Virus record (IMG/VR): IMGVR_UViG_3300031658_000135
Location: 1 to 23,493 of that record
From: a virus
DNA length: 23,493 nt
Direction: 5' to 3' (one strand)
Positions within the stretch are counted from its first letter, which is position 1; each line of letters begins with the position of its first letter. The position numbers and the translations under genes are program-made. Shown in pieces: positions 6,122 through 23,493 of the stretch. The notes beneath the pieces were generated by a model, which saw nothing but the letters and a program-made list of their open reading frames with translations, made no database searches and had not been told where the DNA came from.

Positions 6122-8689
6122 TTATGTTATATATTTATTCCATTCTTCAGAACCTTCTTTAATACCTTGTTTTTTAAGAAGTTCTTTAAGATGTTTTGAT
6201 GCATCATTATATTGAGGATTACCTGATGTTGTAGTTGTTTCTCCGTTATATCTTTCCCAAGCATCTCTATTACCATCTGTTACATTTGCAATAGCTAAAT
6301 CTGTATTATTTTTCTCTCTAGACATTTGCATTGTCATAGCTCCTTGAGTCATCGTATCTAAAGCTTGTAGTTTTCTATCAAATGTAGTAGCATCTGCTCC
6401 TTTGTTAAATTCATTAACATACATTTTATTTTTAGTATTTAACTCAGCTGCATTCCCTTGTGCTCTTGCATTAGTAGTAGAAGCTTCTAAAGCTTTAGTT
6501 TGATTAGTAGCATCTGCATTTAACTTATTAGCAACATTTGTTCCTTCAATATCAACATTAGCTTTAGTCTCTTGTGCATTAATAGCCATCCTTGCTTTAA
6601 ACTTAGAAGTTTGGTTAGCCATCTTATTAGAGATATTACTCATACCACCTCCACTGGTCTGTATAAATTGATCCATGTTAGCTCCATCCATATCTATTGC
6701 TGCACGTTCTGCATTGAAGTTTTTCATTCCTATTTTTTCAGCTTTAATTCTTTCCGCTCTTACAGTAGGAGGAACTATGATATCTGGATTATCCATATAA
6801 TCAGGTTTATCAGTCATTGCTACAGCCGCCGGTAAAAATTGTAACATAGATAAATCTACACCATCCCCCCATCGTTTTCTACCAGATGTTGTAGTTATCT
6901 TTTCATTACCTCCGCCTTCTTCTACAAATGTTTCTTTATTAACATTTTTCTCCTCCTCAGTAGGATTAGATTTCTTACCCATGGATGTTTTACTCCAAGT
7001 AAATTCTCCCATCTTACCATCAATACCTGAAGAACCAGTACCGTGAAATCCACTTTGCTTCACATAATCTTCTTTACTTATACCTGCCTCCTCTAACTTT
7101 GCTTGTAATTCCGGATCATTATCATATGTTGAAGATAGATTATTATTAAATTTATCTTGAAAATCTTTAGTATGCTTAGCAGGATCAAACTCTTCAGGAG
7201 AATTAATACCCATCTCTTTCATTAAGGAAGAATTTCTATTATAGAAATCTGACATATTTGCTTCACTAACTTCTCCATAATAACCTTTACCTCCACCTTT
7301 TTGTGTAGCTGCAATACCTTCATCCCCTAAATCATTAGCTCTATACGAACCGTCTTCACCTCCACCAGTATAACCAGCACCACTATTAGCTTCTTCTATT
7401 TTAGTATAATCTTCTCCAAAAGCATTAAACCTAGGTTTAGATTTATTTGGACTAGTAGTTTTAGCTTCTGTTTTTACTTGCTCCTCACTACTTTCATTTG
7501 GTTCTGGATCGATTCCATTTGGAACTCCATCCCCATCTATATCAGGATCCGAAGAATCTGGTATCCCATCCCCATCAGTGTCTCTAGTAAACTTCTCTAA
7601 ATCTAGACTAAAATCAAACTCTCCTCCTTTTGCATATTTTTTAAACCCTCCAGCTTTAGCAACCATTTCTGGGTTTCTACCAGCTATAATTTCTTGTTCT
7701 CTTGCTAAGGCGTCTTTAGCTTGTTGACTATCTCCATTCTTAACAATTTGTTTATGCCACTCTGCGATAGGAATTCCTCCTTTCTTTAAATGATTAGAGA
7801 AGAAATAATCTTTCTTTTCTCCTCCATCTCTAGCCATAGTCACTTGATCTTGAGTCTCTCCATTTTCTACCTCTGCATTATCTACTAATATACCTGAATT
7901 ACTTCCATTATCTTGTTCATGTGATTGACCTGTATATTCAATTGCATTGGAACCTTCTGCTATAGGAGCAGCTGTTCCTCCTGGTAATGATACGCTTTCT
8001 CCTCCTGCTATAGACTGTTGTACAGCATCCATAGATTGTTCTGGTGCAACACCTCCCTCCTCAAAACTTCTACTTCCATTTTCATTTACTTCCGGATTAG
8101 CTTCAATATAGTTTTGTCTTTCTCTTTCATTATCTTGTGCTTTCCAAGACTCATATCCTCCTTTTAACACGCCGTACCCAGCGCCTCCCATTGTCCCCCA
8201 TTTCCTATTACCCTCCCAAAATGTTTTATTTAACCAACCTGGCACTTCTTTAACTTTATCAGCAACTACATCTTTACCTTTTTTAACAGTCTGTTTAACT
8301 ACTTCCATCTTAGTTTTATCTTTAACAGCTTTCTCTGTGGCCTTCTTTACTACTTTCTTTTTAACGGTATCTTTTACTTTCTTGACTACAATCTTATTAC
8401 CAACCTTAGTTACTATAGGTGCAGCAGCTAATGCTAATTTACTCAGGCCTACACCTTGACCAATACCCGGTATTATAGTTGTAGCATTCACACCAGTATT
8501 AATAGCGTGCTCTTTAGCAGCCGCATCATCACCGATAAGTTTATTATATCCCGATCTAGTAGCAGATACCCCCGTATTAACTATATCTGGTATAGCACCC
8601 CAACCAGGTACTAGCCCAGCACCGGTTAATACATTCTGAGCATTATCCCAAAACTTAGTTGTTTTTGATTTTTTTTGTTTTTTTGCCAT
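6122..8689 (-). CDS. crAss-like cargo protein with TSP3-like calcium-binding motif, 855 aa
   Basis: The protein is modular. Residues 1-15 are Lys-rich. Residues 20-95 are Gly/Ala-rich and hydrophobic, with the turns GLVPGWGAIPDIV and TTIIPGIGQGVG. Residues 95-150 form a Lys/Val-rich amphipathic run related to the octad repeats of the preceding gene. Residues 255-345 carry a block I recognise from crAss-like cargo proteins: SHEQDNGSNSGILVDNAEVE, then DYFFSNHL, then an Ala/Gln-rich helix. Residues 369-396 hold two consecutive DxDxDGxPD calcium-loop motifs of thrombospondin type 3 type. Residues 478-570 end in IDGKMGEFTWSKT, which is reminiscent of the DGxxGxxT signature of peptidoglycan-binding domains, although this is weak. 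Residues 690-800 are a polar, Ala/Asn/Thr-rich helix. Spacing to the neighbours is six and three bases. I infer a multi-domain virion protein ejected with the genome; no catalytic site is evident. Confidence 0.7.
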   Translation of the reverse strand: MAKKQKKSKTTKFWDNAQNVLTGAGLVPGWGAIPDIVNTGVSATRSGYNKLIGDDAAAKEHAINTGVNATTIIPGIGQGVGLSKLALAAAPIVTKVGNKIVVKKVKDTVKKKVVKKATEKAVKDKTKMEVVKQTVKKGKDVVADKVKEVPGWLNKTFWEGNRKWGTMGGAGYGVLKGGYESWKAQDNERERQNYIEANPEVNENGSRSFEEGGVAPEQSMDAVQQSIAGGESVSLPGGTAAPIAEGSNAIEYTGQSHEQDNGSNSGILVDNAEVENGETQDQVTMARDGGEKKDYFFSNHLKKGGIPIAEWHKQIVKNGDSQQAKDALAREQEIIAGRNPEMVAKAGGFKKYAKGGEFDFSLDLEKFTRDTDGDGIPDSSDPDIDGDGVPNGIDPEPNESSEEQVKTEAKTTSPNKSKPRFNAFGEDYTKIEEANSGAGYTGGGEDGSYRANDLGDEGIAATQKGGGKGYYGEVSEANMSDFYNRNSSLMKEMGINSPEEFDPAKHTKDFQDKFNNNLSSTYDNDPELQAKLEEAGISKEDYVKQSGFHGTGSSGIDGKMGEFTWSKTSMGKKSNPTEEEKNVNKETFVEEGGGNEKITTTSGRKRWGDGVDLSMLQFLPAAVAMTDKPDYMDNPDIIVPPTVRAERIKAEKIGMKNFNAERAAIDMDGANMDQFIQTSGGGMSNISNKMANQTSKFKARMAINAQETKANVDIEGTNVANKLNADATNQTKALEASTTNARAQGNAAELNTKNKMYVNEFNKGADATTFDRKLQALDTMTQGAMTMQMSREKNNTDLAIANVTDGNRDAWERYNGETTTTSGNPQYNDASKHLKELLKKQGIKEGSEEWNKYIT
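7502..7582 (-). repeat. Thrombospondin type 3-like calcium-binding repeat in the 855-aa cargo gene
   Basis: Residues 370-396 read DTDGDGIPDSSDPDIDGDGV followed by PNGIDPE. This holds two copies of the DxDxDGxPD loop that binds calcium in thrombospondin type 3 repeats and in secreted bacterial proteins. The acidic spacing is intact in both copies. The motif is common in Bacteroidota surface and secreted proteins but unexpected in an internal virion protein. Confidence 0.8.
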
Positions 8690-8695
8690 AGTTTC

Positions 8696-10021
8696 TTAGT
8701 TATAGTTTGGAAGTTGTTTGAACCCTCCTTTTTTAGCTGATACATTATTCCCTAAATCATACCCAGAATATGTTTTAGCTTTCATCTCTGCGGCTCTAGT
8801 TCTAGACAACTGACTAGTAAATGCTGTCGTAGTTTTAGTATTTGTTTCATTTGCTTTTACTAGTGCTTTATCTTCTGCCGCTTTCTTTTCTTTTCTAGCT
8901 TTACCTCTATTTGTTAACCCTTGCCATGTAGCTACACCAGCTCCTATTACTCCCCCAACAACTGCACCAACTGCATTACCTACGCCGGGTACAACTGAAC
9001 CAATCATAGCTCCATATCCTGCATAAGACCCAGCTTTAGCTAGTATATCTCCAGAAGCTTCTCCAGCATTCCATGTAGTAGCATCGTTATCATTTGACCC
9101 CATACTAATTGCAGTACCTGCTAAATTAGCAGCCATTGCATATGGATTAGGATTTATAGTACTACCTGCTGCTGCTTTAACCCCTTCTTTTGCTCCGGTC
9201 TCAAGTAACTTCTGAGCAGCTAATTCTGCAGCTTTCTTTGTTGCTTCCTCTCCAACTTTATCAACTAATAAATCCTTACCTTTATTTATAGCAACTTCTT
9301 TAACTTTATCAGCTATAACCTCTTTACCTTTATTTAAGGCTACATCTTTAGCTTTATCTATTATTACATCCTTACCTTTATCTAGAGCAAACTTACTAGC
9401 TTGATCTGCTCCCCAGTTCATCCCCATATTAGAACCCTTATCAATAGCAATCTCTGTTCCTTTATTAGTAACTTGTTCAGCTAATTGTTTAGAAACTAAT
9501 TCAGAAGATTTTTGCCTAGCCACGTTCCCAAATCCTTCACCAGCTATAGATTCAGCAGCTTTTTTCTTTGATTCTGCTATAGCCTTTTTTCTAAAGAGCT
9601 TCATAGCAGCAGTTTTAACTACCTGCTTACCGTCCTTTAACTGCCCTTTAGCATTTTCAATAGCACCTCCTTTACCATCATTAGTAAGAGTCTTAATAGC
9701 TTTACCTGCAGTAGCATCTATCTGCAAGTTCTGAGCTTGTCTATCAGCAGCATCCGCATCAACTGCATCCAAATCTTGCTGTTTAGTAGTCTGAATATCA
9801 GCAGCCGCAGTGTTAGCATTCTGTGTAAGGACCTCATCATTCTTTAGTTTCGCATTTTTAGCAGCTTCTAAAACCTGTGGGTTAGCTTCTTCGTAGACTG
9901 TAGATTCAGTAGTCCCAGCACCGCCCTGTCCAGACGTTGATATAGAATTGCTTTCATACATTCCGCCCGGAGCATACTTTTTCTTTCTTTTAACTACGTA
10001 TTTTGATTTATGTTTTTTCAT
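8696..10021 (-). CDS. Putative ejected virion protein with octad repeats and glycine zipper, 441 aa
   Basis: The gene starts one base after the muzzle gene stop. The N-terminus is strongly basic (MKKHKSKYVVKRKKKYAPGG), a type common in phage cargo proteins. Residues 45-180 are Ala/Lys/Gln-rich and helical. Residues 214-261 consist of six tandem octads of the form [DN]KxK[DE]V plus two hydrophobic residues, probably an amphipathic helix or helical solenoid. Residues 333-364 form a long glycine zipper (YAGYGAMIGSVVPGVGNAVG followed by AVVGGVIGAG), typical of proteins that insert into membranes. The C-terminus is again basic and helical. Low complexity gives little chance of finding a named family. 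By position (directly after the tail muzzle) and architecture I infer a pilot or ejection protein analogous in role, not in sequence, to podoviral gp14/gp15-type internal proteins. There are no cysteines. Confidence 0.6.
   Translation of the reverse strand: MKKHKSKYVVKRKKKYAPGGMYESNSISTSGQGGAGTTESTVYEEANPQVLEAAKNAKLKNDEVLTQNANTAAADIQTTKQQDLDAVDADAADRQAQNLQIDATAGKAIKTLTNDGKGGAIENAKGQLKDGKQVVKTAAMKLFRKKAIAESKKKAAESIAGEGFGNVARQKSSELVSKQLAEQVTNKGTEIAIDKGSNMGMNWGADQASKFALDKGKDVIIDKAKDVALNKGKEVIADKVKEVAINKGKDLLVDKVGEEATKKAAELAAQKLLETGAKEGVKAAAGSTINPNPYAMAANLAGTAISMGSNDNDATTWNAGEASGDILAKAGSYAGYGAMIGSVVPGVGNAVGAVVGGVIGAGVATWQGLTNRGKARKEKKAAEDKALVKANETNTKTTTAFTSQLSRTRAAEMKAKTYSGYDLGNNVSAKKGGFKQLPNYN
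9239..9382 (-). repeat. Tandem octad (24-nt) repeat region inside the 441-aa cargo gene
   Basis: Six consecutive units of 24 bases encode DKGKDVII, DKAKDVAL, NKGKEVIA, DKVKEVAI, NKGKDLLV and DKVGEEAT. Position 2 is always Lys, position 1 is Asp or Asn, and the last positions are hydrophobic. The DNA units are diverged but clearly alignable, so the array probably arose by tandem duplication. A weaker unit, NKGTEIAIDKG, lies just upstream. Part of the array is nearly repeated in the next gene at 8244-8280. Confidence 0.8.
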
Positions 10022-10022
10022 G

Positions 10023-13000
10023 TTATCGTGTCATTATTCTAGACTCCACAGTAGTAGAGTACAAATTTAGTAAATTATTTGAGATATTATCATAAATTAA
10101 ACGAATTCCTATCCATTTATCTATAAATTTCTTTTGTTCAGTCCAAACCTTACTTGCATTTTGGTACATTGTATTTGGATATTTAATAACACCAGTATAT
10201 CTAAACATACTTTGTGCATTAGAAGTTGTTATAGTACCTGTATTAGTACCCCCTACAAGATTAGTATTTAAAGAAGTATAATAAGCGCTTGTATCTAATG
10301 TTATATCTGCCATATCCCTGAACCTATTAACCTTCCAGTTGTTACCTACTCTTCGTATATTAATTAAATACTCTAAGGCTGTTGTCTCTAGCCCGCTTAT
10401 TTGATATGTATTATATAAAAAGTAAGATGTGAATCCATGTTCCAGTACCCTAACCCCTTCAGGTGCTAGTATAGTTATTTCATTATACACATCTGCCGTA
10501 TAAGCGAAACTAGAATACAAGGATGTTACATTTCTTAATTCATTGTGTATATATTCTATTTCAAATGGATGATATACTATACTATCTGCATATGCAGTGT
10601 ATTGAACAAGTGCAGGATCATCCTGATATATTAATCCTCTTCTATAAGAATTATGCTCCCATACCGTAGCATTCCCAATATAAGATCCGGCTGTTCCACT
10701 AGTAGAGCCTGCAGTAAAGAGACCATCTAAAAGGGGATGTTGATCCGTCATAGAGTAAAAATTAGTAGACGTATTAAAATATATATAAGGTACGTATGAA
10801 TGTAAACTTACCCATACATTTAATTCAGGGTAATAAGACATTGTCCAACCTGCCGTCCTAAAATAAAAAGTATCAGTATACTCAATAACAGTCGGAACCA
10901 TAGTACTGCCTACTTTATTAAATACTTCAAATACTTTAGTTACAGAATTCCATCTTATGTAAGGGTGAACACCAAGTACTGCAGGTTTGTTAGCCATATT
11001 CACACCATGGGAACTCAAGACATACTCGCGTTTAGTTAATATTATCCTTCTATGTTTAGGGTCCCATACAGAATGCATACCAAATCCGAAGATAGGATTA
11101 TCAAAGTCTCTTATAGGGAATCCATAATCTTCTACTTGAAAATGTAAGTTCTTACGAAACCATTTCTTCATACCTAAATCACTTAATTCTTGTAATTTAT
11201 CTTTCATTAAAAATACTTTCTTAGCCGCTAAGTCAACAAAGAAATGCCCAAACCTAGTAGTCAATACAGACCATTGAGATTGAGATCCTCCATAACCATC
11301 ATCAGTAAGAACTATTTCTGCAGGCTCTTGGGCGAAGATATCACCACTACCTACATACGCCTCACTCCCATCCTTCATCTGCATGGATTGTTTACCTTGA
11401 GATTTTAATAAACTCTCTTCCATATGGAAGTACAATAGATTATTAAAAGAAGCTAACTTCCATAAATCTCCTCTATTTTTAGGGAGATCCTTAAATTGAT
11501 TAGCTAAGAAAACTCTATAATTATCTATTAAACTACTAGTATCATTTTTAGCTGATCTATGTACCCGTGTTGGGAAATCTAATTGTTTTGTTTCACTTAA
11601 AGGTAAGGGAAATGCTACACGTAGATCATTTAATTCTGAGTAATTTTTATTATATTTTAAATTCTCTTGATCCGTGAAATCAGTTTCCCCGGCAAGTCTT
11701 AATAAATCCTTAGCTGGAGTAGCAGGGAAGTACAAACTCTTATCGGACTCTATATGTCTGAAATTTATATTATCTGTAGATTCAACTATATGATAATGTA
11801 TAGCTTTTCTAGGCCTTGAGTCTGTAACAATATCACTAGCTGTTAATGATGTTACAACTCCATGTCTACATATATAAGTATCTCCCCCGTAAATACCAGT
11901 ATCCATATCATCTAAATTTTCCCAATTAGATCCTTGCACAGTAGCAACACTGTAATCTGGAGTTTGTCCATTTGAGGCAGTTACAGGACTTCCGTTAGTA
12001 GAATCAAAGATAAAGTTCTCCAAACTATCTCCTAAAACCTCAAATCCCGTCCAGATTAACTCTTGAGAGTCGATAGACTTATATACATCAGTCTTAAAGG
12101 CATCTAGATTTGCTATCATATATGTACTTCTATTTCCTACAGGAGGCCCCCCTGCATTATCAGATGCATTGATCATTAAAGGTGGTGCTATGAAAGAGTT
12201 GTATCCCCAATTACCCCAGTTATTAGCTCCTCCACCTGCAAATCCCCCACAAGCTGTGGTAGGGGCATACCCTCCACACCCAGCATTAGCTGCGGTACAA
12301 TTTGGAACAAGACTTCCTAAAGGATACATAGGTGTATTTAAACAATTTCCACTACCTAGAGAGTTTATATCATGAAGAGCAGTAAATCCATGATTGTCTT
12401 TTAGTTTAAAAATTAGAGAGCTCTCCCCAAACAGATTAACTACCTTACCCCCAAACCCTAAAGATTTCCCATTAAATATACTATCTCCCTTTAAATAAGT
12501 CTTAGCCTTCTGACCTAATACTCTAGGATATCTATAAACTCCATTCGAAGAACCTGTAGACATCATTCTATATCCTGTTCTATAATACATACCTATGTGA
12601 ATTGACGAATTTATCTTTTGAGCGTAACAGTTTGTAGGACCATCCCATCCCCACTCTTCTCTAGGCATTAAGATTTGCGGATCCGTATTCTTATCTTTTA
12701 CTAATTTAGTTTGCATACGTTTATCTTGATCCAGTGAGGGACCATTCCAAACTAAATTCTTTACATGGAACTGCGGAGAGATATGTGTAGCACCGGCTAA
12801 ACTATTCTTTGTTCTTAATAAATAAAAATCATGAAAACTAAAAGCCATACTAGAATAATTATGATTTATACCATTCGCATCTGTACTAGTTACTGACTGC
12901 AGTATACCAGAATTATCCTGCTGTATAAGATCAACCTCTTCATAGTTCCATCCATTAGTTGCCCAAGGCATTGCTGTGTAAAATTGTTCTGGCTCAGTCT

Positions 13001-15575
13001 GAGTAGAGGCTAATACTTGCATAGCATCTGAGTCCCCCGCCGCTTCTTTACAGAGTCCTATAGGAGTATTTTCAGGTACCATAGGAATTATAGCTGCTTG
13101 CCCTAGAATAGTTCTGTCTGAATGCTTTCTCTTAGCGTAGTAAACTCTAAACCCTTGTACTTGATTAGCTATATTACTTGGTACTTTAATATCATCTAAT
13201 GTAAAACCTAGTCGTCTTACGGTATGGGAAATCTTAGCATCATTATAAATCTCAGGTGGTATATTAGCTGCATTTGCTGTTATTTCAATTTGAATATAGC
13301 CATCTCCACACGGGGATGCGGATTTGACAGCCTTTCTCCCAGCAATAAAAGTAGTTGCCCCGCTACCAGTGTTTTTAAAACTTTTAATTCTAATTGAATC
13401 TCCAGACACAAGCGTTGTGGTCCATCCCGTTGTGTATTTATTATATGATACTCTATTATCCCAATAATCATTCCCACACCCATTCCATGTGGAAAAGTTA
13501 GAAGTTTGCCACCCACTTGAAGATGAACCTGATGCCGTATTTTTAAAAATATAACTTTTAACTTCTGGATCATTAATACCATGTTTATGAAAATTTACTT
13601 GATATGTAACCTTTACAGTCATCGCTTGATCAGCTATGAAAGTAGTAGAACCATTCCACAAAGCAGCTTCCATAGCAGGGTCATTAGTAGTATCAGGAGA
13701 GTTATATATAACGGTATTAGCACTACCAGAGCCAACTAGTAGTTTCCCTGGTTGACAATCCCAAGAGGTTCTATTAAACCGTAGCGTACCTACCCAAGGA
13801 GCTACAGAAGTTACAGATATACCTTCACTAGCAGTAGTTAAACATCCATGATCTTGTAAAATAACTTTCTTACCATCATTTTCATTAGACGGAAAGTGAT
13901 GATGTCTTACATTTTGCTGTTTTAAGTTTAATGCTCCTATATTTCCAGTCTCATCCCATGTTTCATAATCACCTGTATTTGGATAGAACTCTGTAGCATT
14001 CTGCCAATAGTTCATCTTCCTGGTAACTTTACCTGTAAAAGGTCCCCCAGTAAAACTATATTCAAAGAAGTGAAAATTCTTAGCATACCCCTCGCTTAAA
14101 CTTTTAAAATCAGCTGCATTTCCAAACCCTGAAGGTTGTTCAAGTTCTCTCATACCTAAGTCGGGTATACCTACTCCATCACAAATATCTCTACCAGGTA
14201 TATGATATGCGTAGGACATACTACCATCGTTCATAACAAAGGCGATATAAAATGCATAAACTTCACTACGCATATATCCTTTATATTTATATATATTTGG
14301 GACATATCTATAGGACTTACTAGGATCCACAGGTTGTACGGTAGTTAAAAACTTATCTACTGGCTTACCTGCAAACCCAGTGGTGAGATTATCCACAGTA
14401 GCATAATACTCATCAAAGTTATCTATCTCATGTGTTACGGAAGTTAGCTTAATATTATTTGCGTATTTTTGAAAACCTACATCTCTAGTACCAGTTACGT
14501 TACCTACATACAATACCCCATCTAATTGATTGATAGTTTTTGCAGTGTCATAAGCAACCGTATCTATAATAACCTTCTCTAAATCCCCAGAGGCTGCACC
14601 CTCAACTCCTGAAAATACAACTTCCAATCCTGATTTTGTAGTTATCTCTACATCATTAAGTTTTATAGCTTTTATCTCGTCCCCCATTTTACGGATAATA
14701 GTAGGTCTTAATCTATTATAATCAGTATTTAAATTTGACACTAACCATTTAATAGCTTTAGATGTTTGTGTACCATCTTTGGCTCCATCCTTTTTTGTTG
14801 TAGGCCGTGTATGATCATACTCATCAACAATACTTACTGGATTGGAAACTGATAAATAATTTGTAGCAACTAAATCTTCATCTACATATGCTAAAGCTAA
14901 ATAATATACTGCAGTTCGTAAACCACCTCCTTCTATAATAGATTTTTGATAATTAGGAGTTACTGAGATAACATTATCCAGTTCAATTCTAGGTACAGGA
15001 CCAGCACTAGGAAATAAATTTAATAAACCTATATGATCTTTATGGGATGTACCCGGATTGATACCATATATTTTATTTCTCATTGTTGAGATTGGTATTT
15101 CTCTTCGTTGTCTATCTACATTAAATGCTCTCGGTGGATTAAGATCATCCGTCCAATAAACAACTAAATCCCCTTTAGAGTCTACCTTAAAAGTGCCTTC
15201 TATAGGATGTGATACTTTAAAATTTAATTGAGCATTACTCGCAGATGGAATATACAGAGTTTCAAAAACGCCTTGATTATTCCATATAGCTATATGATCT
15301 GCTCCACCAGTTGATGAATTCTTAGCTAAAAAGAGAACAACATGATCCCCAGGAACTTCAATTGCACCAATAACTTTACAGTGTTGACCAAGAGCTCCTG
15401 CATATAGAGGGTTTTCACCTAACTGCCCTTTAGGAGTAGTACCACCTTCATTGGATAATGAACCCTCTTTATCATTCATGAACATGTTTAATGCATGTCT
15501 CCAAGAACCTTTCATCTGATCTATATGACCAGAGTCTTTAAATAATCCTTTTAAAAATCGTTTTTCCTCTGCCAT
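10023..15575 (-). CDS. crAss-like tail muzzle / stabilisation protein (P22 gp10-like)
   Basis: This 1850-residue protein is the largest complete gene here. It follows the tail tubular gene by two bases. The N-terminal 160 residues show the hallmark of crAss-like stabilisation proteins related to P22 tail accessory factor gp10: a basic start, WRHALNMF at 25-32, LSNEGGT at 40-46, and VYWTDDLNPPRAFNVD at 139-154. A second signature lies near residues 804-829 (QGFRVYYAKRKHSDRTILGQ). A third lies around W1588 (VWVSLHSYVPYIYF). Between them is mostly beta-rich sequence. A Gly/Cys-rich loop near residues 1085-1110 (CTAANAGCGGYAPTTACGG) stands out. Structural work on crAss001 places this family at the end of the short tail, where it closes and then opens the ejection channel. 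I therefore infer the tail-tip muzzle of the virion. The insertions make it long for the P22 family, which is expected in crAss-like phages. Confidence 0.85.
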   Translation of the reverse strand: MAEEKRFLKGLFKDSGHIDQMKGSWRHALNMFMNDKEGSLSNEGGTTPKGQLGENPLYAGALGQHCKVIGAIEVPGDHVVLFLAKNSSTGGADHIAIWNNQGVFETLYIPSASNAQLNFKVSHPIEGTFKVDSKGDLVVYWTDDLNPPRAFNVDRQRREIPISTMRNKIYGINPGTSHKDHIGLLNLFPSAGPVPRIELDNVISVTPNYQKSIIEGGGLRTAVYYLALAYVDEDLVATNYLSVSNPVSIVDEYDHTRPTTKKDGAKDGTQTSKAIKWLVSNLNTDYNRLRPTIIRKMGDEIKAIKLNDVEITTKSGLEVVFSGVEGAASGDLEKVIIDTVAYDTAKTINQLDGVLYVGNVTGTRDVGFQKYANNIKLTSVTHEIDNFDEYYATVDNLTTGFAGKPVDKFLTTVQPVDPSKSYRYVPNIYKYKGYMRSEVYAFYIAFVMNDGSMSYAYHIPGRDICDGVGIPDLGMRELEQPSGFGNAADFKSLSEGYAKNFHFFEYSFTGGPFTGKVTRKMNYWQNATEFYPNTGDYETWDETGNIGALNLKQQNVRHHHFPSNENDGKKVILQDHGCLTTASEGISVTSVAPWVGTLRFNRTSWDCQPGKLLVGSGSANTVIYNSPDTTNDPAMEAALWNGSTTFIADQAMTVKVTYQVNFHKHGINDPEVKSYIFKNTASGSSSSGWQTSNFSTWNGCGNDYWDNRVSYNKYTTGWTTTLVSGDSIRIKSFKNTGSGATTFIAGRKAVKSASPCGDGYIQIEITANAANIPPEIYNDAKISHTVRRLGFTLDDIKVPSNIANQVQGFRVYYAKRKHSDRTILGQAAIIPMVPENTPIGLCKEAAGDSDAMQVLASTQTEPEQFYTAMPWATNGWNYEEVDLIQQDNSGILQSVTSTDANGINHNYSSMAFSFHDFYLLRTKNSLAGATHISPQFHVKNLVWNGPSLDQDKRMQTKLVKDKNTDPQILMPREEWGWDGPTNCYAQKINSSIHIGMYYRTGYRMMSTGSSNGVYRYPRVLGQKAKTYLKGDSIFNGKSLGFGGKVVNLFGESSLIFKLKDNHGFTALHDINSLGSGNCLNTPMYPLGSLVPNCTAANAGCGGYAPTTACGGFAGGGANNWGNWGYNSFIAPPLMINASDNAGGPPVGNRSTYMIANLDAFKTDVYKSIDSQELIWTGFEVLGDSLENFIFDSTNGSPVTASNGQTPDYSVATVQGSNWENLDDMDTGIYGGDTYICRHGVVTSLTASDIVTDSRPRKAIHYHIVESTDNINFRHIESDKSLYFPATPAKDLLRLAGETDFTDQENLKYNKNYSELNDLRVAFPLPLSETKQLDFPTRVHRSAKNDTSSLIDNYRVFLANQFKDLPKNRGDLWKLASFNNLLYFHMEESLLKSQGKQSMQMKDGSEAYVGSGDIFAQEPAEIVLTDDGYGGSQSQWSVLTTRFGHFFVDLAAKKVFLMKDKLQELSDLGMKKWFRKNLHFQVEDYGFPIRDFDNPIFGFGMHSVWDPKHRRIILTKREYVLSSHGVNMANKPAVLGVHPYIRWNSVTKVFEVFNKVGSTMVPTVIEYTDTFYFRTAGWTMSYYPELNVWVSLHSYVPYIYFNTSTNFYSMTDQHPLLDGLFTAGSTSGTAGSYIGNATVWEHNSYRRGLIYQDDPALVQYTAYADSIVYHPFEIEYIHNELRNVTSLYSSFAYTADVYNEITILAPEGVRVLEHGFTSYFLYNTYQISGLETTALEYLINIRRVGNNWKVNRFRDMADITLDTSAYYTSLNTNLVGGTNTGTITTSNAQSMFRYTGVIKYPNTMYQNASKVWTEQKKFIDKWIGIRLIYDNISNNLLNLYSTTVESRIMTR

Positions 15576-15577
15576 TT

Positions 15578-16462
15578 TTAATCTCTATTTAAATTTTCTT
15601 TTGTATTTAGATCCTCAAAGAAAGAATCATGCCTATTCATGTTAGGGATTAATCTAACCCACTGACTCATAAAGGAATCATACCTATCAATGTCTGGGTA
15701 GTTAGCTGCATTTCTCGCTTGAGTACAATATTGCTTCCATTGATTCTCTGCAAAATTATAATCTATACCGTTTTTCTTTATATTAGGATTAAACAATAAA
15801 AGTTTTTTGTATATATACCAAAACATAGCTTCTTTAAAACTTATATCTGCAGGTATCATAGGGTAACAATCATGATCTACTGGGAAAGCTGTATAACTTA
15901 AGCAGAGTTTACCTGTTTGAAAAGATGTTTTAATAAAGTTATTTTCGACTAAGTAAGAATCTTTAGATTGTGCACTTTCATTCACACACCCCTCGCAGTG
16001 CATACTAGCATGAAACGTACTAGCACTATATTGTAAAGGCATCATACTTGCATCCCCTTTGAAATAAGAATTTTGCATAACAACTAACTGACTATTAAGT
16101 ATTTGTAGTTGATGTGTTATTTGAGAGTACTCTAAGCCAGCTGCTTGAGCATCTTTTATTTGATCGTTTAAAGCTGTTATACCAGCTATTATAGCATCGT
16201 ATATACTTGAATCCTTAGTAGCCATAGCAGTGTTAGTAGCTACTTGGTTTATATAATATAGGTCTGAAGGTAAAGATACTTTATGATTAACTACACTTAG
16301 AACTGCTTGCTTATGCTCCAATTGAGTACTAGCACCAATATGTTCCAAAGCCTCTCCTATCCATTCAATTGCATCATCAATCCAATTATCATTATCAGGC
16401 TTAAGATCTCTAAATATTTTACGTATTATTTCTTTACTTGAAATTGTTTTATATATAGCCAT
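15578..16462 (-). CDS. Tail tubular protein / ring adaptor (P22 gp4-like)
   Basis: This 294-residue protein begins MAIYKTISSKEIIRKIFRDL, followed by NWIDDAIEWIGEALEHIGA at about 26-44 and LPSDLYYINQV at 64-74. These are the conserved N-terminal signatures of the crAss-like tail tubular family, distantly related to the head-completion adaptor gp4 of P22. A central helical region follows (90-130), then a Cys-bearing segment (MHCEGC) and a C-terminal aromatic helix FKEAMFWYIYKKLLLFN. The start overlaps the IHF-like gene stop by one base (TAATG), suggesting translational coupling. Its place directly before the muzzle gene matches the usual crAss-like order. I infer that it forms one of the dodecameric rings between portal and muzzle. 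Confidence 0.82.
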   Translation of the reverse strand: MAIYKTISSKEIIRKIFRDLKPDNDNWIDDAIEWIGEALEHIGASTQLEHKQAVLSVVNHKVSLPSDLYYINQVATNTAMATKDSSIYDAIIAGITALNDQIKDAQAAGLEYSQITHQLQILNSQLVVMQNSYFKGDASMMPLQYSASTFHASMHCEGCVNESAQSKDSYLVENNFIKTSFQTGKLCLSYTAFPVDHDCYPMIPADISFKEAMFWYIYKKLLLFNPNIKKNGIDYNFAENQWKQYCTQARNAANYPDIDRYDSFMSQWVRLIPNMNRHDSFFEDLNTKENLNRD

Positions 16463-18408: not shown

Positions 18409-18966
18409 TTAATATTTATATAATGTTCTACTTAATCCTATGTTGTGCGTCTTGTCTATTAGTCCATATCTATAGTAGTAGGAGTTACCCTTTTTATTCG
18501 TCCAACCCACTATAGGTGAAACATTAAACGAATGATCATTTCCCCCTAAATCTCCTCCTAACCAAATCCGAGTGTAGGGCTTTCTCTCGGTTATTCTTAC
18601 TGTGTCTATTGTATGTATATACTTAGGGAACTTAGCTGTATAATTAAAATCTTGATTAACTAATACCCCATCTACATAACTAGTTATTGTCCCTTTAATA
18701 AGTTCATCTTCCACTTCATTTTCATAACACCCAAGAGTATCATTATTGATGTAAACAGTATCGTAAGAAATACTGCGAGTAGTGAGGTAAATAGTATCCA
18801 GAACATATATGCTATCAATAGTCCTAGTAAAGATAGTATCAATGTCTTGATTCCCATTATTCCCTGTAGTATTTTGTTTTTCATTGCACTCTTGTAAAAA
18901 TATTATATAGAGGACTAGTACTATTATCGTCCATGTCTTTATTTGAAACTTTTCTAGTATAGCCAT
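18409..18966 (-). CDS. Spanin-like single-pass membrane protein downstream of endolysin
   Basis: This 185-residue protein has a short N-terminal cytoplasmic part, one membrane helix at about residues 12-25 (WTIIVLVLYIIFLQ), and a long exported part. The C at 27 is not in a proper lipobox, so I read the helix as a signal anchor. The periplasmic part has a repeated D-[TS]-[IV]-[YF] pattern (43-46, 51-54, 57-60, 69-72) suggesting extended beta strands. The C-terminal 50 residues (GGDLGGNDHSFNVSPIVGW, then YYYRYGLID and NIGLSRTL) look like an outer-membrane or beta-sheet domain. The gene overlaps the endolysin end by 13 bases. Such TM plus beta-tail proteins sit next to M15 endolysins in Bacteroidota phages and plausibly act as single-protein spanins that disrupt the outer membrane; that role is inference. 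Confidence 0.55.
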   Translation of the reverse strand: MAILEKFQIKTWTIIVLVLYIIFLQECNEKQNTTGNNGNQDIDTIFTRTIDSIYVLDTIYLTTRSISYDTVYINNDTLGCYENEVEDELIKGTITSYVDGVLVNQDFNYTAKFPKYIHTIDTVRITERKPYTRIWLGGDLGGNDHSFNVSPIVGWTNKKGNSYYYRYGLIDKTHNIGLSRTLYKY

Positions 18967-19313
18967 GATACCCTATTATCTTTATCTGGGTCACAATCTA
19001 CATGTATAAAGGTTTTCCCTATTCCTATTCTTGTAAACCCCGCCGCTATAAATGCAGCAATCATTATAAATCTTTCTCTTGACTCTTTACAACTTACATC
19101 CGCTGCTAATCCATGTAGATGTGAAGATTCAGACTTTCCCCCTACTACAGCGTTATGTATTATGGTTCTATACCCACTATTAATTTTAAAAGGAATACCT
19201 GCTATATCTCTTGCTTGATCTAACATCTCTAAGAACTCTTTAGACATAAATTCCCCAGATCCAAGTGAATCAGGACTATCAAATTCAGATAGAGTAAAAT
19301 ATTCTAGTTCCAT
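18954..19313 (-). CDS. Endolysin, M15-family peptidoglycan peptidase
   Basis: The product of 119 residues fits the phage M15 peptidase family (Peptidase_M15_3 type), zinc enzymes that cut the peptide cross-links of peptidoglycan. Visible hallmarks are FTLSEF at 6-11, PFKINSGYRT at 41-50, VGGK at 57-60, the zinc motif SSHLHGLAAD at 63-72 (His65 and Asp72 as ligands), and FIHVD at 102-106 with His104 as third ligand. No signal peptide or cell-wall-binding domain is present, so export depends on the holin. I chose the start at 19313, four bases after the holin stop, because the family begins at FTLSEF. An upstream ATG at 19352 would add 13 non-conserved residues and overlap the holin by 35 bases. 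This is the only gene here ending in TAG; an in-frame TAA follows four codons later. Confidence 0.88.
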   Translation of the reverse strand: MELEYFTLSEFDSPDSLGSGEFMSKEFLEMLDQARDIAGIPFKINSGYRTIIHNAVVGGKSESSHLHGLAADVSCKESRERFIMIAAFIAAGFTRIGIGKTFIHVDCDPDKDNRVSWLY

Positions 19314-19317
19314 AGTT

Positions 19318-19821
19318 TTACCTTTTAGTAATGTATTTATCCAACAAGTCATTTAGATATTTTTTTAATGGTATTTCTCTACCTGTTATTCTCTCCATAT
19401 TTTCTAAAATAGATATTATATACTCCCACATAATGTATCCTATAACAGTCTCATGAAATGCTGATGTGAACCATGCTATAACAGCTCCTTTAGTAGCGTA
19501 AGCCTCTGCAAAAACGTGTGTGATATAGATCAGAACAAGCCAGGTTAATAATTTAAATCCAAATCTAGATATTTTTCTAGAGACTATTTTTTTACCCTCT
19601 ACTATAGAAGCAGAAACACCTGACCCTAATTCAAAGATGACCATTACAAAGAAGGCCATAAATGTAGTATGATCAAATCCTAATAAAGTTGAACAGCATG
19701 CTATTATACCTCCCATTGGTAATGTGATTTTTAGTAATTTAAAATGTATCATTGATGTTGTAAAATCATGTAGATTGTCAAACCCAAAGTGGTCGACTGT
19801 GTTATGTATGAAGTTTTTCAT
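19318..19821 (-). CDS. Phage holin (Phage_holin_4-like), 167 aa
   Basis: The protein has three or four hydrophobic segments at about residues 31-48, 51-72, 89-106 and 113-138. It ends with a hydrophilic tail containing WEYIISILENMERITGREIP at 132-151. The ExxSILEN...G..xP pattern after the last helix is typical of the Phage_holin_4 / toxin-secretion holin family. It would assemble in the inner membrane and release the endolysin encoded immediately downstream. It is the first gene of the lysis cassette and is preceded by the only sizeable intergenic gap in the window. The stretch between helices 2 and 3 (VEGKKIVSRKISR) is basic and likely cytoplasmic. Confidence 0.8.
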   Translation of the reverse strand: MKNFIHNTVDHFGFDNLHDFTTSMIHFKLLKITLPMGGIIACCSTLLGFDHTTFMAFFVMVIFELGSGVSASIVEGKKIVSRKISRFGFKLLTWLVLIYITHVFAEAYATKGAVIAWFTSAFHETVIGYIMWEYIISILENMERITGREIPLKKYLNDLLDKYITKR

Positions 19822-20637: not shown

Positions 20638-23493
20638 TTACGATACACAACAAAGTGGATCTGACATACATGAGGCTTGTGAGGTATTAGGACCTTCAAC
20701 AGAAACAACAGAACAGTTGCATCTTCCTACACAACACGTTACTATATTAATAGTATCAGAATTTACACTAGGAGATCCAAGAGCACCTGAAATAATAGTT
20801 GCAGTAGAAGGTGTACTTGAAACTGTACTACCTTCTATACTTATATTGTAACCAGTTACTGGGTCACACCCATCTGTACCTGGAGCAGATATTAGACTAG
20901 GAGTTGGAACACCAGCTGATATAGCTGCATCTATATAAGTTTTCCATGTAGTAAAGAATTGACCAGGCATTCCTGCATGTGTTATACTAGATATCTTCTT
21001 TTTCACAAATCCATTTAAGCAACATCCCGTAGGATAAGTTCCACAAGGTTGTGAAGACTGATAATAGAAACCAGAGAAGGTAGCAGTAATTCCATGCAGA
21101 AGTACTAAAGAAGTTAAGGCCATCTCCGCGTTAGGGAATGTAGTCCAAGGATCTAACTCAGTTGAATTATATGTATTTGTAGATAATAAAATTCCTTCAG
21201 CTATAGGTAAAGTTACTGCTACCCCTGAGCTACAAGTGTTTATAGAGGTACTAGCAGAAGGAATACAATCCCAATACTCTGCCTCACAATACATACAAGA
21301 TCCATCATCTATAGTTGCCCCTGAACTATAATTTGATGCCCCTGGATCAGTACAACCTTCGATCGAATATAAACAACTTCCATCGTCACATGTTGCTACA
21401 GCATCATAATTTGCAGCTAATGTATCAGTACATCCATAAAGACAGTATATACATGATCCATCATCTGCCACAGCTAAAGAATTATAGTTGTATGCAGTTA
21501 TATCTGTACATCCACAAATAGGTATAGTGGTTATAATTATAACTGGCATAACTACAGTACCTGCAGTACCACATGAAGGGGTAGTAGTTTCAGTGTATGT
21601 AAATCTCCATTGACTATTAGTAGTAATTAACTGTGTATGGAGTAAAGTGTTAAAGCCGTTAGAGGTACCTGTTATAGAAGCTACTATTGTAGTCCAAGTA
21701 GCCCCTCCATCTAAAGATTGCTCTAAGAATCCAGTAATAGACGTACCAGGAGTACATATCATATTCCATGTAATACTAGATGGTGTACCACATACAGTAG
21801 AAACAACTGTTGTAGGAGTTACTAAACACGCACAAAATCCAGGAGCTATACATAATGCTGGAGTACTTATAACATATTGTGCTGGTATGACAGTAGTATT
21901 AAATGCAGCTGGGTCATCACAAGCAGGAGTTTGTATATCAAAGGTGAATGTATTATCACATGTTTGAGGTACACCCCAAACTGGAGTAGAAATAGTGCTA
22001 ATAACCATCGAATAACTTCCATATCCTAGTCCTAAAGTAGTAAAGGTTGTACCTACACCAGAAGATACAGTAGCAGAGTTTGATACATTTCCAACGGCAT
22101 CAAATACAGCTATATATAATACTGTAGGTAATTGCACATTAGGAATAAGACCCATTGTTAAAATAGCTGTACCTGTAAATGATCCTGATGGATCCTCTAT
22201 AGTAGTAGTTAATGAAGCTTGAAACCAATTTGTAGTAGTGTTTGCTGACGCAGCGTCTATAACAAAAGCTTGCCCCGTCCCTGATAGCGATGCTCCCAAT
22301 GCTGTGGTAAAGCCACTACAGTATAAGCAACTTCCATCATCATTATTTGCATTAGAATCATAGTTTAATGCAGTTAGATCTGTACAACCATCTAAAGGTG
22401 CTATACATCCTACTGCGCAGGTTGCTAAAGGATTAAAGTTAGTTGAGCCTGCTACTGTTGCAGCAGTTGTTCCGTTACAGAATAAACCAGGATTTGCTGC
22501 TTCCCATATAGTACCACAATCCATACACCCATTAACACATAAATCTATACAACAATCATTATTCAGAGTAATATCTAAAGGACCTGTATACCCTTGATCA
22601 GGATCAGTACTATTACAATCACAGGTTGCTAAAGGATTATATTGAACATAAAGAGGATCAGTACAGCCAAATACACAGTAGTTACAACTACCATCATCTA
22701 TAGTCGCATAAGATACATAATTTCCTGCTGTAGAGTCTGTGCAACCTAAATAGTCACAGGTTCCATCATCTAAGTTAGCTGTTACACTATAATTACTTGC
22801 TGGTACTGTTGGATATGTAACCGTATTAAGTAGTGTAGCATAATCATTTGGAGATTGAGAATTTATACCATTCCATACTTCTGTGCCATCCCAATAAGCT
22901 TGAGTTTGTAATCCATCATCCATACAACCTGAATTAATATACACACAACAACCATCGTTAAGTGTTGCTACTACCGGTAATCCTGCGCAATTAAAGTTGT
23001 AATTAGATGCAGTAGGATCCGTACATCCAGGTACTAATAAACAAGACGTACAATCTAGTTCTAGTGTAACAGTTGGAGTTGAATCAATCAATTCACTTGC
23101 AGCATTGGCTGCCTGAATAGTATTATAACCAGAGAAAGTAAAACAATCTCCACCAGTTAATTTTATCACTGTTGATCCAATAGTTGGGCCCCATGTTGCA
23201 TTAGGCATTATTATGGCCGCATTATTATTAATACCTACCCAAGCTATAGTATTTAAAGCAGTAACTCCTGTTCCCACATCTACTATATTATAAATATCAG
23301 TTGTACCACATTTAGTCCATTCTAAGAAAAGATCAGGAGCTAAAGCACACGCTGCACAATCATTATATATATCCGCACTCCCAGAAAAATAAAAATCATT
23401 TCCTAACTCCAACTCACCTGCCATAGTCGTATACCCATGGTGAACTGAGGCAGGACCTGTATGGGGTCCTAAATATGTGATACAGTATTCATA
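20638..23493 (-). CDS. Cys-rich GCTD/DDGSC repeat protein, probable virion surface or fibre protein, N-terminus beyond window
   Basis: The frame has no stop up to the right edge, giving at least 951 codons. The first in-frame ATG is at 23424 (928 residues), but the 23 codons upstream are open and I think the true start lies outside. In numbering from that ATG: residues 1-130 hold Cys-bounded units (FYFSGSADIYNDCAAC at 11-26, then EWTKCG and CFTFSGYNTI); residues 133-369 and 638-713 hold nine degenerate repeats of the form GC[TM]D...NY...DDGSCxYC; residues 370-637 look like beta-sandwich domains; residues 714-928 are a distinct Cys-bearing C-terminal region. GCTDPxAxNYxxxAxxDDGSC repeats are common in secreted proteins of marine Flavobacteriia. 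No signal peptide, catalytic motif or membrane helix is seen. I infer a virion surface, appendage or receptor-binding role. Confidence 0.6.
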   Translation of the reverse strand, partial: YEYCITYLGPHTGPASVHHGYTTMAGELELGNDFYFSGSADIYNDCAACALAPDLFLEWTKCGTTDIYNIVDVGTGVTALNTIAWVGINNNAAIIMPNATWGPTIGSTVIKLTGGDCFTFSGYNTIQAANAASELIDSTPTVTLELDCTSCLLVPGCTDPTASNYNFNCAGLPVVATLNDGCCVYINSGCMDDGLQTQAYWDGTEVWNGINSQSPNDYATLLNTVTYPTVPASNYSVTANLDDGTCDYLGCTDSTAGNYVSYATIDDGSCNYCVFGCTDPLYVQYNPLATCDCNSTDPDQGYTGPLDITLNNDCCIDLCVNGCMDCGTIWEAANPGLFCNGTTAATVAGSTNFNPLATCAVGCIAPLDGCTDLTALNYDSNANNDDGSCLYCSGFTTALGASLSGTGQAFVIDAASANTTTNWFQASLTTTIEDPSGSFTGTAILTMGLIPNVQLPTVLYIAVFDAVGNVSNSATVSSGVGTTFTTLGLGYGSYSMVISTISTPVWGVPQTCDNTFTFDIQTPACDDPAAFNTTVIPAQYVISTPALCIAPGFCACLVTPTTVVSTVCGTPSSITWNMICTPGTSITGFLEQSLDGGATWTTIVASITGTSNGFNTLLHTQLITTNSQWRFTYTETTTPSCGTAGTVVMPVIIITTIPICGCTDITAYNYNSLAVADDGSCIYCLYGCTDTLAANYDAVATCDDGSCLYSIEGCTDPGASNYSSGATIDDGSCMYCEAEYWDCIPSASTSINTCSSGVAVTLPIAEGILLSTNTYNSTELDPWTTFPNAEMALTSLVLLHGITATFSGFYYQSSQPCGTYPTGCCLNGFVKKKISSITHAGMPGQFFTTWKTYIDAAISAGVPTPSLISAPGTDGCDPVTGYNISIEGSTVSSTPSTATIISGALGSPSVNSDTINIVTCCVGRCNCSVVSVEGPNTSQASCMSDPLCCVS
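21286..21513 (-). repeat. GCTD...DDGSC protein repeats, cluster 2 (three units)
   Basis: Three nearly regular units follow one another: GCTDITAYNYNSLAVADDGS, GCTDTLAANYDAVATCDDGS and GCTDPGASNYSSGATIDDGS, each closed by Cys. Unit length is about 26 residues. They are more regular than cluster 1 and sit after the beta-sandwich region. Confidence 0.85.
22318..23028 (-). repeat. GCTD...DDGSC protein repeats, cluster 1 (six units)
   Basis: Six units begin GCTDPTASNY, GCMDDGLQTQ, GCTDSTAGNY, GCTDPLYVQY, GCMDCG and GCTDLTALNY. The first four and the last end in variants of DDGSC (NDGCC, DDGTC, DDGSC, NDCC, DDGSC). Two units (GCMDDG and GCMDCG) carry long insertions before the closing Cys, and the closing part of the GCMDCG unit is degenerate. 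Conserved Cys, Asp and Gly positions suggest disulfide pairing, possibly with metal binding. Confidence 0.8.
23452..23470 (-). other. 6-bp inverted repeat near the right edge
   Basis: AGGACC and GGTCCT flank a 7-base loop, so the minus-strand RNA could form a short hairpin. The surrounding 70 bases are richer in G+C than the rest of the window. No T tract follows on the minus strand, so it is not a typical terminator. It lies inside the open frame of the repeat protein and may be chance. Confidence 0.25.

Follow-up and report, generated by a model that had tools for sequence, protein, structure and literature searches.

Tandem TSP3-type calcium loops in the inter-domain linker of a probable crAss-like cargo protein

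Cargo protein 1 of PhiCrAss001 and its counterpart in the window

In abundance, crassviruses rank first among human gut viruses, and they have relatives in the environment. How their DNA and cargo proteins cross the envelope is an unsolved problem. Cargo protein 1 of PhiCrAss001, gp45 (PF25725), was detected in virions by mass spectrometry, where one segment lies on the portal and another sits poised in the tail barrel; gp45 has been proposed as the first protein to be ejected, and a partly unfolded state has been suggested for the cargo while this happens (PMC10172136). The cultured marine crAss-like phage phi14:2 of Cellulophaga encodes the syntenic cargo proteins g070 and g069, which are annotated as virion proteins from MS/MS. 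In this study, we analysed a 23,493-nucleotide stretch of viral DNA (IMG/VR record IMGVR_UViG_3300031658_000135), called the window below, in which a gp45-like protein, P0001, carries two calcium loops of the thrombospondin type 3 (TSP3) type. The relevant features are as follows.

15578 to 16462, minus strand: P0007 (294 aa), crassvirus tail ring protein 1 (PF24228, E 6.8e-55)
10023 to 15575, minus strand: P0004 (1850 aa), crassvirus muzzle protein (PF25731, E 5e-43)
8696 to 10021, minus strand: P0003 (441 aa), N-terminal (membrane/glycine-zipper) half of cargo protein 1, assigned by hhalign
6122 to 8689, minus strand: P0001 (855 aa), C-terminal half of the split, gp45-like cargo protein 1, assigned by hhalign and synteny
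7592 to 8035, minus strand: portal-binding-like (crAss_CARG1-like) domain, aa 219-366 of P0001, with the core G-Q-S/T-H-E-Q ... E-V-E-x-G-E-T
7508 to 7582, minus strand: tandem TSP3-type calcium loops, aa 370-394 of P0001 (855 aa)
6974 to 7432, minus strand: tentative accessory domain, aa 420-572 of P0001, ending in DGKMGEFTWS
6143 to 6943, minus strand: long helical C-terminal domain (KPDYM ... TSGGG ... N-rich), aa 583-849 of P0001, conserved across the family

The gene order on the minus strand is muzzle P0004, P0003, P0001, and then two more large proteins, which matches the placement of gp45 after the muzzle in PhiCrAss001. Profile comparison also revealed a collinear arrangement of the N-terminal membrane part, the portal-binding-like domain, and the helical C-terminal domain. 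With hhalign, P0003 matched residues 1-424 of gp45 (E 2e-5), and the P0001 family matched the gp45 family in the portal-binding-like domain (aa 219-366, E 3.6e-6) and in the C-terminal domain (E 3.5e-5). The window differs from PhiCrAss001 in that its cargo is split into two ORFs and in that P0001 has about 215 aa, loops included, between its two C-terminal domains. The P0003-like and P0001-like parts form a single ORF in seven relatives (L016, L025, L174, L178, L180, L181, and L182). The collinear gp45 matches and these fusions indicate that cargo protein 1 is divided here between P0003 and P0001, an assignment built on moderate profile scores plus gene order. A Pfam PF25725 search of 18 aligned proteins returned gp45 itself as the only match at E <= 0.1, and P0001 is accordingly named gp45-like by homology and synteny, not as a curated member of that family. 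The first-pass annotation had taken P0001 for a crAss-like internal virion protein, and the gp45 profile matches together with the position after the muzzle make it very probably a crAss-like cargo, or ejection, protein. By analogy with gp45 of PhiCrAss001, P0001 would be packaged in the virion and ejected.

Two other regions of the window deserve mention. P0005 (3-3809, minus strand) matches phrog_32390 (E 9.2e-43), a family without an assigned function, and lies where crassviruses have their large RNA-polymerase-associated cargo genes. Possible lysis genes, judged by sequence only, lie at 18409-19821 on the minus strand: P0013 is a predicted membrane protein, P0012 appears peptidase-like (HLHGLAADVS), and P0011 has a predicted N-terminal membrane segment.

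Sequence, class, and conservation of the loops

The loop segment of P0001 reads as follows.

Loop 1, aa 370-381 of P0001: DTDGDGIPDSSD, of the form DxDGDGxPD
Loop 2, aa 383-394 of P0001: DIDGDGVPNGID, of the form DxDGDGxPN
Whole segment, aa 370-397 of P0001, nt 7582-7499 (ORF 6122-8689, minus strand): DTDGDGIPDSSDPDIDGDGVPNGIDPEP

Two intact DxDGDGxPD loops had been annotated at 7502-7582; the position and loop 1 hold, whereas loop 2 ends in PN instead of PD. The D..N..D of loop 2 is that of a normal N-type TSP3 loop. Both loops carry the DxDxDGxxDxxD / DxDxDGxxNxxD ligand pattern of PF02412 (D370, D372, D374, D378, and D381; D383, D385, D387, N391, and D394), and on sequence grounds no ligand position of metal-binding TSP3 loops is missing from them. 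TSP_3 is the sole Pfam match in P0001; at 19.5 bits (E 7.8e-4) it falls short of the gathering score, which is 25, and the genome search gave 22.5 and 23.6 bits, again under that score. Among 20,000 residue shuffles of P0001, one full DxDxDGxxDxxD loop arose 10 times and two loops 0 times; these shuffles, together with the conservation described below, rule out a chance origin.

A phmmer search with 33 loop residues identified COMP (3fby, E 1.4e-4) and an OmpA-family protein with TSP3 (5wtl, E 1.8e-4) as the nearest matches with a solved structure. All 10 of the 10 acid/amide side-chain ligand positions align between the TSP3 of COMP and the P0001 loops without gaps. The thrombospondin repeats are cysteine-bearing arrays of several repeats, in contrast to the two cysteine-free loops of P0001. 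The loops of 5wtl belong to the same sequence class, and in OmpA proteins TSP3 loops adjoin a peptidoglycan-binding domain. P0001 differs in lacking a Pfam match to the OmpA C-terminal domain, and the neighbour of its loops is weakly peptidoglycan-binding-like. Among the titles and abstracts of the paper library searched, none describes TSP3 loops in phage virion proteins, and a search on 5WTL and TSP3 in phages yielded nothing useful.

An AlphaFold2 model of aa 221-855 of P0001, built with 16 sequences, had a mean pLDDT of 60. The loops scored 51-56, compared with 35-39 in their flanks, and showed no secondary structure at this low confidence; no helix of the EF-hand or dockerin kind was predicted beside them, in a part of the model that is likewise low-confidence. 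TSP3 loops are poor in secondary structure and require calcium to fold, and the model therefore speaks neither for nor against a TSP3-type fold. Foldseek found no match for this model, and a separate model of aa 420-572 gave no fold match.

P0001 has only one close homologue, found in L001/L003, with 65-68% identity. The L003 protein keeps both loops at the same place, with all 10 of 10 side-chain ligand positions unchanged. The two proteins agree at 19/25 loop residues versus 9/35 residues of the linkers on either side (Fisher p 2e-4), and synonymous differences are present in 10 of the 19 conserved loop codons. Because the ligands are unchanged through these silent codon changes while the adjoining linkers have diverged, the codon comparison shows that the loops are kept by selection. 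The more distant L010 protein (37% identity in its best segment) has a single loop, placed in the linker that also holds the loops of the window protein. Retention of the loops at the same place in homologues, which the first-pass annotation had proposed as a check, is thus seen for both loops in L003 and for one in L010.

The linker across the cargo family

The family of P0001 was gathered from IMG/VR, and 23 members were examined for loop placement. Loop motifs in these members are confined to the stretch between the CARG1-like domain and the C-terminal domain, although this inter-domain region makes up only 25% of the length on average. Loops are carried by 6 of the 23 members, against an expectation of 1.15 when the linkers are shuffled (P 2e-4), a frequency to which one carrier, L053, does not contribute independently, since it was found via the motif. 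In the window protein, L003, L010, and L164, a loop is found no more than about 20 residues from the CARG1-like domain, and L020, L164, and L053 have one that precedes the C-terminal domain; L164 thus has two loops, one at each place. In the three or four carriers other than the window protein and L003, the loops are looser. Several of the looser motifs are not the full DxDxDGxxDxxD, as in L020 and the first loop of L164, which are without the last acid. On a tree built from the two conserved domains, at least four gains or losses of loops are needed.

Loops are absent from ten gut homologues and from most relatives, and the phi14:2 sequence has none in the 100 kb searched. P0001 found no match in the 'phages' collection, nor did tblastn with the loop segment. 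A comparison of marine with gut relatives had been suggested as informative, but a marine habitat is not supported as the explanation: the gut homologues are without loops, yet so are the marine phi14:2 and most environmental relatives.

In P0001 the loops sit between the portal-binding-like domain and a variable segment, and other lineages fill the same linker differently. The cargo protein 1 relative of L178 (2777-6736) contains DUF2272 (E 1.8e-9, above the Pfam cut-off), and L020 and L023 contain MORN repeats, also above the cut-off. The g070 protein of phi14:2 (L187:10360-12141), which matches the gp45 family with E 2.8e-9, has two zincin-like HExxH motifs (HEFTH and HEFIH) in place of the calcium loops. 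In P0001 itself, aa 420-572 align weakly with PG_binding_1-like segments of several relatives, one of which, in L174, reaches only E 0.044 against PF01471. The DUF2272, the MORN repeats, the weak peptidoglycan-binding-like segment, and the zincin-like motifs lead us to read the linker of cargo protein 1 as a variable module site, and this site points to the part of the cargo that may meet the cell wall.

Three more specific assignments were set aside. A peptidoglycan-binding fold for aa 420-572 of P0001 was backed by the weak alignment only, with no Pfam profile match to PG_binding_1 and no match by Foldseek or VIA-align. A lytic transglycosylase or lysozyme in L020-L024 came down to one weak Pfam lysozyme match (E 0.0074) without PDB support. 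A K..GG motif considered as a processing signal showed no excess over shuffles.

Possible roles of the loops and related sequences

In the reading that we prefer, and to which we give about an even chance, the loops form a short TSP3-type spacer, calcium-binding and optional, in a modular ejection protein. The spacer would occupy the hypervariable linker between the portal-docking part and a variable, probably wall-acting, module. The loops putatively bind Ca2+, and once the virion has left the low-calcium cytoplasm, calcium would stiffen the linker; the stiffened linker would then keep the accessory module away from the portal-bound part, both in the virion and in the periplasm. Several observations weigh against such a spacer: the low pLDDT over the loops, the weak peptidoglycan-binding reading, the many relatives that do without loops, the single close homologue, the moderate gp45 profile scores, and the lack of a Pfam CARG1 match.

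The motif had been taken as a mark of exported proteins acting where calcium is high. A scan of viral contigs found DGDG[IV]P[DN] in at least 120 stretches, and among 20 proteins checked, five match portal families (L117, L124, L130, L082, and L106, each with a single loop in its C-terminal part) and one (L045) matches a cytidyltransferase family. Proteins of these families act in the cytoplasm or head and are not exported. Since similar single loops occur in portal proteins and in an enzyme, the motif alone does not imply export. The same survey lends some weight to an explanation that we consider possible but doubtful, namely, that single DxDxDG loops in the disordered tails or linkers of many virion proteins are a general phage virion element to which export is irrelevant, binding whichever divalent cation is available in the head and serving a structural, assembly, or DNA-neutralising role. 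Single loops in lysine-rich virion-region proteins of L003 and L004 fit this explanation; however, the window protein carries a pair of loops in exact TSP3 register and not a single one, and the loops of the cargo family are restricted to one inter-domain linker. A functionless acidic linker derived from a host exported protein is very improbable. It would suit the patchy distribution and the repeated gains or losses on the tree, but the ligand residues have been kept through synonymous change while the neighbouring linker residues have not, and loops exceed the number expected from shuffled linkers.

The first-pass annotation had itself proposed that the loops could be a folding switch triggered by calcium when the protein arrives in the periplasm or sea water, or an anchor outside the cytoplasm, a model that we regard as unlikely. 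Similarly unlikely is a fuller version in which a calcium-using ejection apparatus would have its loops fold on exit from the cytoplasm, fix the wall-acting module in the periplasm, and release it in the cytoplasm, so that the protein would sense the side of the inner membrane on which it lies. The calcium dependence of TSP3 folding favors a switch, as does the presence, in the corresponding linker of some relatives, of modules that may act on the cell wall. The partly unfolded state suggested for PhiCrAss001 cargo in ejection also speaks for it (PMC10172136). Against it, phi14:2 comes from sea water and has no loops, and most relatives dispense with them. Phage heads and capsids are permeable to small ions, and ions would thus enter the head before ejection, leaving no new calcium signal at that step. 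Because of this permeability, calcium loading is expected at cell lysis and release, when the virion leaves the low-calcium cytoplasm, and not at ejection, which removes the ground for a trigger there. We therefore prefer a spacer beside the module site and treat the switch as a less likely extension of it. The linker also offers a testable handle on the calcium dependence of ejection.

Loop-like sequences were also seen in proteins outside the cargo family. P0009 of the window, a lysine-rich protein, has no loop. Its positional counterpart in L003 (7623-8642) has one, DQDGNGVPD, and that in L004 (7849-8634) has two; those in L006 (7483-8484) and L005 (8236-8640) have looser DxDxDG-like stretches. 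A KPDADGDGVPDWADKxPG segment recurs in lysine-rich phage proteins of L040, L054, L055, L061, L073, L097, L103, and L104, an example of this type being KPDEDGDGVPDWADKKSG in L061; the proteins of L073, L097, and L040 had no PHROG match. Finally, P0006 of the window (951 aa, an open-ended ORF at 20638-23493, minus strand), which has no Pfam match at E 0.1, contains nine repeats of the type GC[TM]D..., several of which close with DDGSC, as in GCTDPGASNYSSGATIDDGSC, and we take these repeats to resemble those of exported Flavobacteriia proteins.
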